Of a stretch of 64,000 bases of DNA, positions 29,096 to 55,159 are shown one piece after another (within the stretch, counting starts at the first letter, position 1; each line of letters begins with the position of its first letter). Location of the stretch: positions 1 to 64,000 of the IMG/VR virus record IMGVR_UViG_3300022872_000001. One strand, written 5' to 3'. The notes below the pieces were generated by a model, which saw only the letters and a list, made by a program, of their open reading frames with translations, was not told where the DNA came from and ran no database searches. The translations under genes were made by a program, and so were the position numbers. This DNA is from a virus.

Positions 29096-29103
29096 TATTT
29101 ACT
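29096..29103 (-). promoter_or_regulatory. AGTAAATA box, first of two
   Basis: GCAGTAAATACATAG on the minus strand, 88 bases before the charge-segregated protein gene. Confidence 0.55.
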
Positions 29104-29176
29104 GCAAAGAACCGAAACTTCAAAACTATAGATCGGATACAGAGGTTATTGAATTGTTCTATTGCTGCATATACCT

Positions 29177-29184
29177 TATTTACT
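29177..29184 (-). promoter_or_regulatory. AGTAAATA box, second of two
   Basis: GCAGTAAATAAGG on the minus strand, between the stop of the 199-residue gene and the downstream box. The two are 81 bases apart and share a similar flanking sequence (CGAAACTTCAAAACTA-like), hinting at a local duplication. Confidence 0.55.
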
Positions 29185-29830: not shown

Positions 29831-29916
29831 TGGTGCCGGAGACGGGACTCGAACCCGTACGCCCTTACGAGCGGCAGATTTTAAGTCTGCTATGGCTCCC
29901 TTTACATCACTCCGGC
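29831..29916 (-). tRNA. tRNA-Leu (anticodon TAA)
   Basis: Acceptor GCCGGAG pairs with CTCCGGC; anticodon stem GCAGA/TCTGC encloses loop CTTAAAA with anticodon TAA; a long variable arm follows (class II); T-arm has GTTCGAGTC; CCA is encoded. All elements are intact, so it should decode UUA and UUG. Confidence 0.92.
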
Positions 29917-29918
29917 GT

Positions 29919-29997
<79 letters not shown>

Positions 29998-47113: not shown

Positions 47114-47563
47114 ATGACAACAGGAAGCATGCAGGAACTGCCAGAGAATGAGTTGCAGGATTTAGGAACAAACTTAATTGATGCTTTATTAGGCAAAGCA
47201 TCCCGTGAATCTCTTGATGTCATGGCTGAACTTCAGGAATCAATCATAGACGCCATCGATTCCCTTTCTACCTCTCTTGGCATTAGCTATGAAGACTCAG
47301 ATGACGAGGACGACGAAGAAGATGACACGGAAGATGGTGAAGACGGTGCTGGTACGGATATCGATGCTCTTGAAACCGAAGAGGAAGTGGAAGTTACCAC
47401 TACCGAAGATGTCGATCATCTGACAAGTAATCAATTGCGCAAGCTGTCTATTAGCATCGCAAATGAATTATTCGTCCGTGCTTCGCAGGCGGATGCAGAT
47501 GATTGTGATGAAGAGGACGAAACCGAGGATTCGGAAGCTGATGAAGAGGATTCGCATTTCTAA
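47114..47563 (+). CDS. Hypothetical acidic protein, 149 aa
   Basis: Two similar helical segments (ELQDLGTNLIDALLGKAS and NQLRKLSISIANELFVRAS) are each followed by a D/E-rich run, so the protein looks like an internal duplication. Isoelectric point must be very low. DNA mimicry or scaffold roles are possible; nothing specific is recognised. Confidence 0.7.
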   Translation: MTTGSMQELPENELQDLGTNLIDALLGKASRESLDVMAELQESIIDAIDSLSTSLGISYEDSDDEDDEEDDTEDGEDGAGTDIDALETEEEVEVTTTEDVDHLTSNQLRKLSISIANELFVRASQADADDCDEEDETEDSEADEEDSHF

Positions 47564-47571
47564 TTTGTTGC

Positions 47572-47579
47572 AGTAAATA
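47572..47579 (+). promoter_or_regulatory. AGTAAATA box before the structured RNA
   Basis: GCAGTAAATAAAC, eight bases after the stop of the acidic gene. The only gene-sized element after it is the structured region. Confidence 0.6.
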
Positions 47580-47608
47580 AACAGTGAACAACACGAATGG
47601 AGGATCTT

Positions 47609-47782
47609 ATGTTTTCCGGCATTCGTGCGATGTTGCAAGATTGGTACTACGTAATCTGTAATACAGATTACCAAGTCTTCCTTTATAAGGTTGGGTGTGG
47701 GAACCTAGTTGCTGCAACCTACGGCAGGTCAGCAACATACACTATTAGCCGACGCGCTAGCCACAGATTTTGGTATCTGTAA
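47609..47782 (+). CDS. Alternative reading: small ORF, 57 aa
   Basis: ATG with GGAGG five bases upstream and a stop at 47782. Coding is possible, but the frame lies over three perfect hairpins and its stop falls within one, so I favour RNA. Confidence 0.3.
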   Translation: MFSGIRAMLQDWYYVICNTDYQVFLYKVGCGNLVAATYGRSATYTISRRASHRFWYL

Positions 47783-48120
47783 GGCTAGCGTGATCGTTAT
47801 ATAGAGCAGTACCCACACCGCACATCCTGCGACACGCGCACAGCCACAACTTTACAATTCAAGCATCAAACTAAAAGGCTCGTGCCTATTAGGACGTCCT
47901 AACTCTTACACAGTTATCTTGTTGATCGAAAGCTTCAAGGTTTCTATGTAAGACGGAATGTCCATTTATGCGTAGCGTGAGAGAACGCCGCCGGAAGCAT
48001 AATGCAGACAACTAGTAGTTGATATCGAGCGTAGTTATTTGGGTCGCTCCCGCTACATCCCGGTTTCATCCTATGCGTCGATTCACTGCTTCCGAAGCCG
48101 TTTTTAAATAGATTCAAATG

Positions 48121-48155
48121 AAGGGCGATTCAGAAATGGGTCGCCCTTTTCCTTT
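48121..48155 (+). terminator. Intrinsic terminator
   Basis: 8-bp stem AAGGGCGA/TCGCCCTT with a 12-base loop and a TTTTCCTTTT tail; ends the structured RNA region. Confidence 0.8.
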
Positions 48156-48163
48156 TGTTCAGT

Positions 48164-48171
48164 AGTAAATA
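48164..48171 (+). promoter_or_regulatory. AGTAAATA box, proposed phage promoter
   Basis: AGTAGTAAATAAAG directly after the terminator, 51 bases before the next gene. Confidence 0.65.
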
Positions 48172-48221
48172 AAGTGTGCATCATTTAAATCTAAGCTAAC
48201 TAATTCTCGAAAGGTACTATC

Positions 48222-48704
48222 ATGGCAACTAAGAAATCTGCAACTAAGGCTCTATCCGCAACACGCACTACCTACGCTGTTGATCTGAAGAGTAAGAAAA
48301 CAGTACCTGCAAAAACATTCGTCACTGGCCGCCTGGAACAACCGAAGCAAGCCTCCCAAGAACCTTTACCTGAACCAGAAACGGCAGTAGACGCTGGTAC
48401 TTTGCTTGGTACCTATATTCCTCCAGGTGACGGGGACTCGTCTACTGTATCTACCCGTTCGGTAATTCTCTCCCGCATTTGCGGCATGGAACAGACGATT
48501 TTACACAATCGTGGGTTACTCGGTGACCTTATCGCTACCCTCAGTCCTATTCTGGGGGAAGACGCCGTGGTACCTCCTGCGCCTACTTCATGCTTTGAGG
48601 CAAATGTTCACTCTCATCTGCGTCTTCGTATTGAGAATATCATCGATACTCTGGAAGATCAAACACGCGTTATTGTTTCCCTAATTACGGCTGTGGAGTT
48701 GTAA
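48222..48704 (+). CDS. Hypothetical protein, 160 aa
   Basis: Basic, disordered start, then helices. The last 50 residues resemble the ends of the next two proteins (a helix ending in ILxSL or similar). No family recognised. Confidence 0.7.
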   Translation: MATKKSATKALSATRTTYAVDLKSKKTVPAKTFVTGRLEQPKQASQEPLPEPETAVDAGTLLGTYIPPGDGDSSTVSTRSVILSRICGMEQTILHNRGLLGDLIATLSPILGEDAVVPPAPTSCFEANVHSHLRLRIENIIDTLEDQTRVIVSLITAVEL

Positions 48705-51028: not shown

Positions 51029-51385
51029 ATGAATGTGAACAAGCAATTATTGGAAGAGGCTGCCTCGGCCGCAGGGCATACACTAGTATGGTCATACGAC
51101 GAGAGTTTATGTTTTCTTACCGATACCTGGGAGGGATGTTTTAACCATGACGAACCGTGGAACCCTATTCGTATGGATGCAGATGCCTTTCGTTTGCAGG
51201 TGAAACTTAAGATGTTAGTAATCTGGCTACCCCTACACGTGCGGGTTAGGTGTGGAAATATACATGCCCTAGAATTTATAGGAAGTTATGCTAATAGCGA
51301 AGATCCTTATAGAGACGCTGCACGCAGAGCTATTACACGGTGCGCAGCTAGGTATGCACCCACTAAGGAATTACACAATGCTTGA
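51029..51385 (+). CDS. Hypothetical protein, 118 aa
   Basis: AAGGAG site before the ATG. Alpha/beta with several Trp and Cys. Its end overlaps the polymerase start by eight bases. Confidence 0.7.
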   Translation: MNVNKQLLEEAASAAGHTLVWSYDESLCFLTDTWEGCFNHDEPWNPIRMDADAFRLQVKLKMLVIWLPLHVRVRCGNIHALEFIGSYANSEDPYRDAARRAITRCAARYAPTKELHNA

Positions 51386-53651
51386 CTCAAGTTTCACCTA
51401 TAAATTCGATAGTCCCAACGCCTATGATTTAACTCTTAAGCGTTGCTCGAATTGGAAGAATGAAAAGAAACGTGTGCTAATCATTATGCAGACGGTCGAT
51501 GGCCGCGATCTTCGCGCTAAGGCAATGCTGGGTGATAAGTTGACTAGTAATACAATGCATAATGCAATTAAGTACGCGCGCGGTATTGCTCGTACCTACA
51601 CAGAAAAAGGATTAAACGATGTAGCCTTTAGTGTTGTGCCCTTTCACCAATACAAACATCTCCATTTACCCTCCGGTCCTCGTCGCGCTGCCGAAGCTGC
51701 ATTCGCTCACCACGTCCACGCAATGATTGGTAAACTTAAACCAACGCACATATTGGTTTCAGGTGATAACGCAATGCATGCCTTGTTTCCAGCTATTGAT
51801 AAGCATGCATACAAACGCGGTTGGGTTCATGAATTACAATCAGGTGATCTTAAGGTAAAGGTAGTCTCCACGCTTGACATGGCACGCTTACTGGAGAAGC
51901 AAGGTCAACACGCAAACCTACTTGGATTTTGGTGCCGACATTTATGTAATCTTTTGATTGGTCGATTACCTCATGACCTTTCTCATGTTAAAGCAAAGCC
52001 TATCTATGTTAATACTCTGGAGAAGTTCGATAAGGTCATGGATCTCGTTGAATCTTCCTCTATCGTGGCAACGGATACGGAAACTGCCAACCTTACGGTA
52101 CTGCACAATAAAATCTATACAGTGCAGTTCGCTAGTGATAAATTGCCGTTAAATGGTTACATCATTCCATACAAGCATCCTCAGACGCCTTGGAATAAGG
52201 AAGAATTAAAACACGTCAGAAAACGTCTAACGAAGTTCTTTAGCAGTAAGAAAGGTCCAGAACTTGTTACGTTTAATGGTATGTTTGATTTACGTGTCAT
52301 TCGTCGGCAGTTCAAGCTTCCAATTATTTGGAATCGTGTTTGGGAAATTACAGCAGGTGAACACAACCTGGATGAGAATATTTCCTCCCTCTCCAGCTTC
52401 GGTGCCAAACCTGGTGGCTTGGCTGCTGTCTATTGTTCGTATGGTAATGAATTCTACTACACAGCCGAGTTCGGTAAGGATGAGAGAGCCACAATCTCTC
52501 ACGTAAATATTAATAAGAACAAAGGCTTTCAGTTTTACGCAGCTACTGACGTTGTATCTATTCTAGCGCTTAGAAATGCTCAGATTGAAAAAGCTGACCA
52601 TCAGTTTATCCAAGGTAAGAAGTACGGCCCGTATTTTAAACGCCATGTACTCTACCAAATGAGTGACACTGCGCATCAACTATCCCACTTAGCTGAGGAT
52701 GGTTCCTATGTTGACGCAAAATACCTGCGACATCTGATTGGTGCAGATTCTCCCTTGCGAAAGGAGTTGCGAGTCCTTGATAAGGATATGCGTAACTTCC
52801 CTGATATGCAGGAAGCTAATCGTGTACTTCTGGCTAATTCGGGTTTGAAATCCAAAGGCTTATTCGGTGCAGCTCGACAAGCCACTAATTGGATGCTTCG
52901 CGTATCTAAGACAGCGCATTTACGTATTCTGTTCTTTGATGTAATGAAGCTGGAAGCTGTATCTGAAACTGACGGTGGGGAACCTTCTACAGATAAGGAA
53001 TTCGTTAATGAATACAAGGATACCAACATCGTTGTGGACGCGTATGGTCAGTATGCAGCCTTAGCCAAGCTACTGAGTACCTACGCTAAGGGTTGGTACA
53101 AAAAACTAACTACATCAAAGGATTCGATTACTGACGGTCATCTTAGACCTCAGTACACCTTCTTTGATGTAGATACAGGACGTTTGGCTTGTAAGAATCC
53201 TAATCTGCAAACAATTCCATCCAGGTCTAAGCTAGCTAAGATCATTAAACGGATGTTCGTTGCTCCTCCGGGTGCCATGCTCGTAAGGTTCGATTATAGT
53301 GCCCATGAAGTTCGTGGTTGGTCGATTGTTAGTGGTGATAAGGCATTAGCCGAAGTGTTCCGAATGGGTCAAAAGCTTCGGCAGATCTTCATTCAAGATC
53401 CTTCGGAAGCAAATGCCAAAGCTGTCAAAGAAAAGGGCGATGTTCATCTTTTGAACGTAAAAAGATTATTTAATAAAATCGTCGAAAAGAAACATCCATT
53501 ACGTGATGCGGTCAAAGCTGTTATCTTTGGACTTTTATACGGAAAGTCTACCCAATCATTAGGTGTCGATACTAAGAAGGGTGACCTGGATGCTATCAAA
53601 GGCACGCTTAATGCCTTGCGTAAGGAACTCAAACAATTGGAGAAGGTATGA
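51378..53651 (+). CDS. Family A DNA polymerase, N-terminal part (exonuclease, motifs A and B)
   Basis: Residues 30-190 form an alpha/beta domain (VLIIMQTVDG, HILVSGDNAMHAL) that recalls the uracil-DNA glycosylase fold fused to some phage polymerases. The 3'-5' exonuclease follows with ATDTE (D233, E235), FNGMFDLR and ATDVVS. The polymerase core has FDYSAHE (motif A, D639) and R709-x3-K713-x3-F717-x3-YG (motif B, O-helix). The gene ends 36 residues after motif B; motif C is in a separate gene at 54281. Start at 51378 has AAGGA upstream. The stop overlaps the next ATG. Catalysis must need both products. Confidence 0.9.
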   Translation: MLDSSFTYKFDSPNAYDLTLKRCSNWKNEKKRVLIIMQTVDGRDLRAKAMLGDKLTSNTMHNAIKYARGIARTYTEKGLNDVAFSVVPFHQYKHLHLPSGPRRAAEAAFAHHVHAMIGKLKPTHILVSGDNAMHALFPAIDKHAYKRGWVHELQSGDLKVKVVSTLDMARLLEKQGQHANLLGFWCRHLCNLLIGRLPHDLSHVKAKPIYVNTLEKFDKVMDLVESSSIVATDTETANLTVLHNKIYTVQFASDKLPLNGYIIPYKHPQTPWNKEELKHVRKRLTKFFSSKKGPELVTFNGMFDLRVIRRQFKLPIIWNRVWEITAGEHNLDENISSLSSFGAKPGGLAAVYCSYGNEFYYTAEFGKDERATISHVNINKNKGFQFYAATDVVSILALRNAQIEKADHQFIQGKKYGPYFKRHVLYQMSDTAHQLSHLAEDGSYVDAKYLRHLIGADSPLRKELRVLDKDMRNFPDMQEANRVLLANSGLKSKGLFGAARQATNWMLRVSKTAHLRILFFDVMKLEAVSETDGGEPSTDKEFVNEYKDTNIVVDAYGQYAALAKLLSTYAKGWYKKLTTSKDSITDGHLRPQYTFFDVDTGRLACKNPNLQTIPSRSKLAKIIKRMFVAPPGAMLVRFDYSAHEVRGWSIVSGDKALAEVFRMGQKLRQIFIQDPSEANAKAVKEKGDVHLLNVKRLFNKIVEKKHPLRDAVKAVIFGLLYGKSTQSLGVDTKKGDLDAIKGTLNALRKELKQLEKV

Positions 53652-54055
53652 ATGACATCGTAGTGGTTAAGCCAGGTGAAGGGGTCATAATTGATCCAGC
53701 TGCTAAACTTCAATACACCAAACACTTTCCAAATCGCTATACGGTAGTAGCAACTCCTTCAGATTACCATGTAGCTTATAAAATCTATGAAATCGCTGGT
53801 TGGGCAGGTAAGACTTCGGATAAGAATCTGGATACTCCTTTATACGGCGAAGACTTCACTGAAGGTATCGATGGGATTGATACGGTTATCAGTGGTTCGG
53901 TAAAATGGGATGGTTGCAGCAATTGGAGTTTTGATGAGACTGCACGCGGCCATATGACCCACGGATGTAGCAAAGAGGACATATTGAGTATAGGCCTTAT
54001 TCTTGGCGAATGCTGGGAATGGACGAAAGAACTTTGCCCTAATTGGAGTTACTAA
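53648..54055 (+). CDS. Hypothetical protein inserted in polymerase locus, 135 aa
   Basis: ATGA overlap with the first polymerase gene. Mixed alpha/beta with many Trp. It has no intein, HNH or other homing motif that I recognise. Confidence 0.75.
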   Translation: MNDIVVVKPGEGVIIDPAAKLQYTKHFPNRYTVVATPSDYHVAYKIYEIAGWAGKTSDKNLDTPLYGEDFTEGIDGIDTVISGSVKWDGCSNWSFDETARGHMTHGCSKEDILSIGLILGECWEWTKELCPNWSY

Positions 54056-54288
54056 TGGAATCACCTTCTCTAATTAGTTTTCTGATATACCTAGCAACCA
54101 GTGCGTATATAATTGCGGTCTATTTTGCAGGTGGGCGTCGCCGCAACGATAATTCGTTATCGTGCATATTTATGGCCATCTCCATATTTTGCATATTCAA
54201 CATCTTTATGCCTTTGAATCTGGCAGTGTGGTTAGCCATATCATGTATTTGTTGGTTCGTACTAATCATGAGGAATAGAAATGGCTAA
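54055..54288 (+). CDS. Small membrane protein inserted in polymerase locus, 77 aa
   Basis: TAATG overlap with the previous stop, GGAG site upstream. Two or three hydrophobic segments cover most of the length. No family recognised. Confidence 0.7.
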   Translation: MESPSLISFLIYLATSAYIIAVYFAGGRRRNDNSLSCIFMAISIFCIFNIFMPLNLAVWLAISCICWFVLIMRNRNG

Positions 54289-55159
54289 GGTACTAGAGAA
54301 ACCTGTTGAACTCACAGGTAAAGCAAGGCAAAAACGTATTGAAGAGATCAAAACTTTAATTAAGAAGGAAGAGAAAGCTTTAGCTGTTTTGATTGCCGAA
54401 GACCGTACACCTTATGCGCAGGACATTGTTGATCGTATGTTCACTGAATTCCCTAAGGGTGCGCAGTGGACTAACAAGATGAAGAAATTGGCGGAGGAAG
54501 AATTCTATGTCTTCTCACCAATCGGACGCAAGCGTAATCTCTTCGCAGCAATGACTCAAGATCAAGCTATTGTTGCACGCCAGGTTCGCCGTGGCACCAA
54601 TGCTCCTATTCAAGGTTTCGCTTCGGAGATTAGCGTTAAGGCTGGTCGCGTGGTTTATGAAACATACTACGAACACTTGCCGACCTTCTGTGAATTGATG
54701 GAGGTAGACTACGATCCGTGGGAATGGCGTGTACCTTACAATCGAATCGTACATGATGCTTCCTATTACGCCGTGCCCTTCAAAATGGTAATACCTTTCG
54801 TGCATATCCTGCAATACGATACTACATACGGAATTACCAAACGTTACAAAGAGGAATTCGGTGTTGCCTTTACAGTAGAGCCAGAGATCGAGATCGACTT
54901 TGGTGCTCGTGATGACAATACATTCGGTTGGGACTGGTCCATTCCTTCCATTGTAGATTCCATGGATAAGTCCTTGCAAGATATGATTGAATTGAAAATC
55001 CTTAGAGAAAATAAGGAGAAGATCATGAAACAAATTTTCAAGCCATGGGCGAATAAGAAGTTTCGCCATTACCTGCAAGAACATTTCCCCCTACTCGGTG
55101 TTACCGATTTAGATAAACAAATTGTGGACGCCATTCGCCCCATTTATAAGAAAGAATAA
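54281..55159 (+). CDS. Family A DNA polymerase, C-terminal part (motif C)
   Basis: Begins with a charged helix, then continues the polymerase fold: YAQDIVDRMFTEFP, FYVFSPIGRKRNL, RRGTNAPIQGFASEI and motif C IVHDAS (H158, D159). The usual Glu after HD is Ala here. It fits exactly onto the end of the gene at 51378-53651, so together they give one full polymerase. No residues at the junction suggest an intein. Two unrelated genes lie between the parts. Confidence 0.88.
   Translation: MAKVLEKPVELTGKARQKRIEEIKTLIKKEEKALAVLIAEDRTPYAQDIVDRMFTEFPKGAQWTNKMKKLAEEEFYVFSPIGRKRNLFAAMTQDQAIVARQVRRGTNAPIQGFASEISVKAGRVVYETYYEHLPTFCELMEVDYDPWEWRVPYNRIVHDASYYAVPFKMVIPFVHILQYDTTYGITKRYKEEFGVAFTVEPEIEIDFGARDDNTFGWDWSIPSIVDSMDKSLQDMIELKILRENKEKIMKQIFKPWANKKFRHYLQEHFPLLGVTDLDKQIVDAIRPIYKKE

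Follow-up and report, generated by a model that had tools for sequence, protein, structure and literature searches.

A candidate large structured non-coding RNA in a jumbo-like phage of the BcepSauron/Motura group

The very large phage RNAs known so far fall into only a few classes, of which two build nanocages from RNA alone, for purposes yet to be explained (PMC12286853). The locus described here, a long gap in a tightly packed phage operon, raises the question of whether it holds the gene for another such RNA, and, if so, whether that RNA belongs to a known class, encodes a peptide, or acts at all as RNA rather than as DNA.

The locus, its transcription signals and its genome

The window, a 64-kb stretch of DNA, comprises the beginning of a 192,170-bp virus record. 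Beyond 43.8 kb its genes have plus-strand orientation, and the gene ending at 47563 is separated from that starting at 48222 by a gap of 658 nt (47564-48221) with no credible gene inside; the 44-56 kb operon contains just one other gap that reaches 230 nt. A preliminary description of the sequence had reported a gap of about 650 bases in a packed plus-strand operon, with a box and an intrinsic terminator of its own, and all three elements were recovered in our analysis. A promoter-like AGTAAATA box, a T4-late-like single element, occupies 47572-47579 on the plus strand and would drive the candidate RNA from an expected start at about 47584-47586. The putative intrinsic terminator (48120-48149, plus strand) consists of a hairpin of 13 pairs with a GAAA loop and a T-rich tail. 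A second AGTAAATA box (48164-48171, plus strand) would serve the gene at 48222, setting the RNA apart from the downstream operon.

The whole genome has 43 copies of the AGTAAATA box, compared with about 9.4 expected; in 38 of these the box shares the strand of the nearest gene, and R then T are preferred 12-13 nt past its start. It is also present in BcepSauron and in L003, L032, L034, L035, L041 and L047. T4 late promoters are of a one-element type, TATAAATA, which AGTAAATA resembles. Judged by this distribution, AGTAAATA is a genuine recurrent signal, promoter-like and group-wide. The first box, the terminator and the second box together give the candidate its own start and end and the next gene a start of its own, so that 47585-48155 has, from sequence signals alone, the independent transcription unit expected of a large structured phage ncRNA. 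Elsewhere in the window, at 29096-29184 on the minus strand, two AGTAAATA boxes lie about 80 nt apart, each with a similar TAGTTTTGAAGTTT stretch ahead of it, a duplicated promoter unit that might serve a very short transcript.

The same signals bear on whether the candidate is a cis-acting, riboswitch-like leader or attenuator of the genes from 48222 on. As a leader would be, it is co-oriented with these genes, directly upstream of them and terminated before them, but beyond the terminator a separate AGTAAATA precedes the next gene, no riboswitch or leader family matched, and 570 nt is long for such an element; we find this explanation quite unlikely.

A family-A DNA polymerase and a Dda-like helicase put the phage near the Burkholderia phages BcepSauron and BcepSaruman and the Achromobacter phage Motura, the 231-kb phage of L003 being a more distant relative than these. 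In a DNA-polymerase alignment search, identity to relatives was 49-59% at best, and no relative closer than the top match of 59% was found by polymerase search in IMG/VR or in GTDB bacterial genomes. By these comparisons, the genome hosting the candidate is that of a jumbo-like phage of the BcepSauron/Motura group.

Two further features of this genome were recorded. The family-A polymerase is divided between two frames (51288-53651 and 54281-55159), with two small frames between the halves, one at 53648-54055 that belongs to a PHROG family without assigned function and one at 54043-54288; it is a single frame in most relatives and is likewise split in L042 (9902-12031 and 13083-14198). A group I intron (RF00028, 74.3 bits) lies on the minus strand at L027:14717-15030, corresponding to positions 158717-159030 of the record.

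Folding stability and predicted architecture

The stretch 47585-48155 had a predicted folding energy of -198.9 kcal/mol (z -6.7), and when the terminator was dropped the remaining body still reached -178.7 kcal/mol (z -7.0); in both cases none of 100 shuffles was as stable. For comparison, 332 control windows of this length (571 nt) taken across the genome averaged a z of -0.85 (sd 1.3), and the only one to equal the candidate sits at 114 kb in repetitive coding sequence. Relative to both shuffled and genomic controls, the candidate has the stability expected of a large structured phage ncRNA. Among the gaps found in its genome, it is the largest with strong structure; the higher-ranked one at 140 kb reads as a coding frame. 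Perfect Watson-Crick helices of at least 7 bp numbered 13 (7.0 ± 2.7 in shuffles) and those of at least 8 bp numbered six (shuffle mean 1.8, maximum 5). The claim of at least six perfect helices of 7-14 bp was therefore correct in number but not in length, since the longest strictly perfect helix has 9 bp, not 14, and longer ones include G-U pairs or bulges. The pseudoknot also suggested as possible did not stand out, the best loop-loop matches being of 5 bp and none above chance.

Base-pair probabilities of the predicted fold were used to lay out the domains of the candidate structured non-coding RNA of about 570 nt (47585-48155), all given here on the plus strand. A predicted 5' hairpin (47592-47627) has a perfect 8-bp stem, CACGAATG/CATTCGTG, and a loop region holding a GGAGG and an ATG. 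It would be followed by a multi-branch domain I (47627-47837; mean pairing probability 0.92-0.97), whose closing stem (47627-47641/47824-47837) encloses a hairpin at 47651-47671 and a multi-branch part. A sub-domain at 47694-47819 (mean pairing probability 0.92-1.0), closed by GGTGTGGG/CCCACACC, contains a hairpin at 47708-47736 and a long hairpin at 47742-47804. Next comes a 31-nt A-rich unpaired loop (47846-47876) closed by 47838-47845/47877-47885, and then domain II (47892-47963), an extended stem-loop with 23 pairs in three stacked helices (mean pairing probability 0.87-1.0) and CGAAAG in its terminal loop. The 5' arm of domain II falls within a 14-nt palindrome, TTAGGACGTCCTAA, that can be read directly from the sequence. 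Domain III (47981-48105) is built from CGGAAGCA/TGCTTCCG plus outer pairs; its outer stems have pairing probabilities of 0.75-0.89, compared with about 0.5 in its interior, where two folds are nearly equal in energy (-65.4 vs -65.9 kcal/mol) and the ATCGAGCGTAG/CTATGCGTCGAT pairing belongs to the alternatives.

The fold alone does not indicate RNA, because the two strands fold almost equally, also with DNA parameters: the opposite strand of the body is nearly as stable as the plus strand (-176.7 vs -178.7), the plus strand has no excess of G-U pairs (13 of 170 pairs vs 15 of 169 on the minus strand), and DNA parameters give the body a z of -6.2. Since the body folds about equally well both ways, the assignment to a strand rests on the promoter and the terminator. 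Hairpins with mostly Watson-Crick pairing and no strand preference in folding, in a setting of replication genes about 8 kb from the cumulative GC skew minimum (40438), could belong to a DNA-level element such as a replication origin or recombination or packaging hairpins. Against this, the promoter and terminator frame the unit exactly and in the plus direction, and gene orientation can explain the skew minimum, which is close to the strand switch. A purely DNA-level role consequently appears improbable to us, and we infer that the candidate RNA is transcribed, from the plus strand.

Coding potential and search for relatives

The only sizeable plus-strand frame of the candidate, of 57 codons (47609-47782), begins with an ATG at 47609 preceded at 5 nt by GGAGG, a good ribosome-binding site, and is probably no gene. 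The candidate might nevertheless be an mRNA for a phage peptide of 57 aa, comprising a structured coding region and a 3' part whose fold would be secondary. In favor of this, the GGAGG is near-ideally spaced, a motif carried by only 6 of the 180 genes called here, and some of the neighboring small genes have codon scores that are likewise low (-0.04 to -0.14 per codon). The score of the frame itself (-0.115 per codon) is the same as that of wrong-frame ORFs (-0.133 ± 0.10, n = 137), its product matched nothing in phages at E values up to 10, hit no Pfam family and had as its only PHROGs match one (E 0.074) that is not meaningful, and the frame spans only the first third of the 570-nt unit. We judge the peptide mRNA unlikely; the score leans toward a non-coding candidate, though several genuine small genes in the neighborhood score no higher.

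Rfam cmscan, run both with gathering cutoffs and with E values of up to 10, returned only meaningless matches of at most 16 bits. The covariance models of ROOL, GOLLD, OLE and the group I intron gave no match at E 10, and no known riboswitch or leader family, tRNA or intron had a credible match at the candidate. The preliminary description had been unable to place the RNA in any class, and this assessment holds, with Rfam covariance models negative even at E 10 and those of ROOL and GOLLD, which it had singled out, negative at the gathering threshold as well. A DNA search of annotated phages and plasmids found no homologue, and relatives of the proteins flanking the candidate were not found.

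Several short matches were rejected. A 28-nt match in BcepSauron (blastn/nhmmer against related phage contigs) was dismissed because it sits in coding sequence. Scans of IMG/VR with exact 16-mers gave 20, 20 and 5 matches, attributed to chance given their dissimilar flanks, and scanning GTDB genomes with an 18-mer yielded 2, both due to chance. Covariance models, each from a single sequence, were built for the sub-domains R1 (47692-47821), R2 (47838-47964) and R3 (47981-48105). R1 and R2, with the insensitivity of such models, retrieved nothing in 30 records; an R3 match in G009 (E 0.042), where a 27-nt blastn match lies, was ascribed to chance, as it is antisense within a lysine-rich open frame. 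The candidate thereby appears to be an orphan, and these searches, given how insensitive single-sequence models are, weakly suggest that it is absent elsewhere.

Its restriction to this phage, with none of the relatives searched carrying it, and the presence of a group I intron elsewhere in the genome would fit a decayed insertion (an intron, a transposon remnant or a dead tRNA array) with residual hairpins. Such a remnant is hard to reconcile with an intact promoter and terminator, a stability far beyond chance, the lack of an intron, tRNA or other credible match in Rfam, and a genome in which no repeat of the candidate of at least 14 nt was found elsewhere; we give this origin little credence. 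The genome also showed no antisense match to the candidate of at least 14 nt.

Other structured non-coding stretches occur in the group. In BcepSauron, the region immediately ahead of the same helicase (Dda-like) is a tRNA island, and after it comes a 236-nt structured non-coding stretch (L031:7750-7985; z -5.0) that ends in a terminator followed by a AGTAAATA box. A related phage contig has a 670-nt gap (L040:7161-7830; z -6.9) in which GAAGGGTTTGAGGCTTTAGCCTT and its complement can pair almost perfectly over about 26 bp, a candidate for a large structured RNA or an inverted-repeat element, and another has a strongly structured gap of 749 nt (L042:4264-5012; z -5.7); Rfam was negative for both. 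The candidate has no sequence similarity to the L040, L042 or BcepSauron stretches. Phages of this group may thus tend to carry variable structured non-coding stretches, with the candidate possibly one of several unrelated ones.

Comparison with known large RNAs and possible role

The likeness in size to ROOL and GOLLD that had been proposed is real, at about 570 nt. ROOL, which forms a homo-octameric nanocage, is similarly large (659 nt for ROOL env-120) and phage-borne, with an ornate multi-domain fold and a disordered linker (PMC12286853); the candidate differs from it in having no covariance-model match at E 10, in not lying beside tRNAs and in being known from a single copy. GOLLD is a large phage RNA, often located by tRNA islands, whose expression goes up during lysis (PMC12286853). 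Unlike GOLLD, which often exceeds 800 nt, the candidate is shorter, has no covariance match (to the conserved 3' region) and contains no internal tRNA, and the GOLLD-type tRNA association was not seen, the nearest tRNAs lying 18 kb off at 29831-29997 on the minus strand. Membership in ROOL or GOLLD is not supported by these comparisons. A highly diverged member of either would share the length, the phage location and the large fold of several domains that includes an unpaired loop, and the relative BcepSauron carries tRNAs at the corresponding position; with no match at E 10 and its own tRNAs so distant and on the other strand, we strongly disfavor this origin and consider it very improbable.

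OLE RNA is large and structured and works as an assembly (PMC12286853). The candidate is likewise large and structured, with no OLE match. The OLE family is not known as a phage RNA. A group I intron (RF00028) is also structured and several hundred nucleotides long, and one is present elsewhere in the same genome, but the candidate has no RF00028 match, lies outside genes and has its own promoter and terminator.

Taken together, the transcription signals, the z values and the codon score indicate that the candidate is a real, non-random structured unit, probably transcribed and non-coding, and a good orphan candidate that does not yet amount to a class. The large structured non-coding RNA of the preliminary description is thus retained as a stand-alone, highly structured and probably non-coding unit, without the ROOL and GOLLD affiliation, for which the models were negative. 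We favor, with some confidence, the interpretation that this jumbo-like phage has at 47585-48155 a stand-alone gene for a non-coding, trans-acting structural RNA. Transcription would start just past the AGTAAATA at 47572 and stop at the terminator at 48149, yielding a transcript of about 570 nt predicted to fold into the 5' hairpin plus domains I to III, linked through the 31-nt unpaired loop. This RNA would most likely be made during infection and act in trans as a structural RNA.

How it would do so is a more speculative matter. It might work like ROOL and GOLLD, accumulating to serve as an RNA scaffold or particle, or it might divert host factors as a decoy, a proposal we hold tentatively and with clearly less confidence than the existence of the gene itself. 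Action as an abundant particle of the ROOL/GOLLD kind is compatible, by analogy, with the size, the setting and the 14-nt palindrome, and under a scaffold or particle reading contacts could be made through the TTAGGACGTCCTAA palindrome and the free loop. A bolder proposition, which we regard as rather unlikely, is that the candidate represents a hitherto unrecognized class of large ornate phage RNA, separate from ROOL and GOLLD and with no other member known so far, and that it assembles into an RNA-only particle or scaffold when jumbo-like phages infect.

As a compact unit with defined ends, the candidate is directly transcribable and testable. Its absence from covariance libraries and annotated phages implies that scanning for a gap together with a promoter and a terminator catches what family searches miss. 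If the interpretation is true, an unrelated RNA of such size in the BcepSauron/Motura group would mean that large phage RNAs arise repeatedly.
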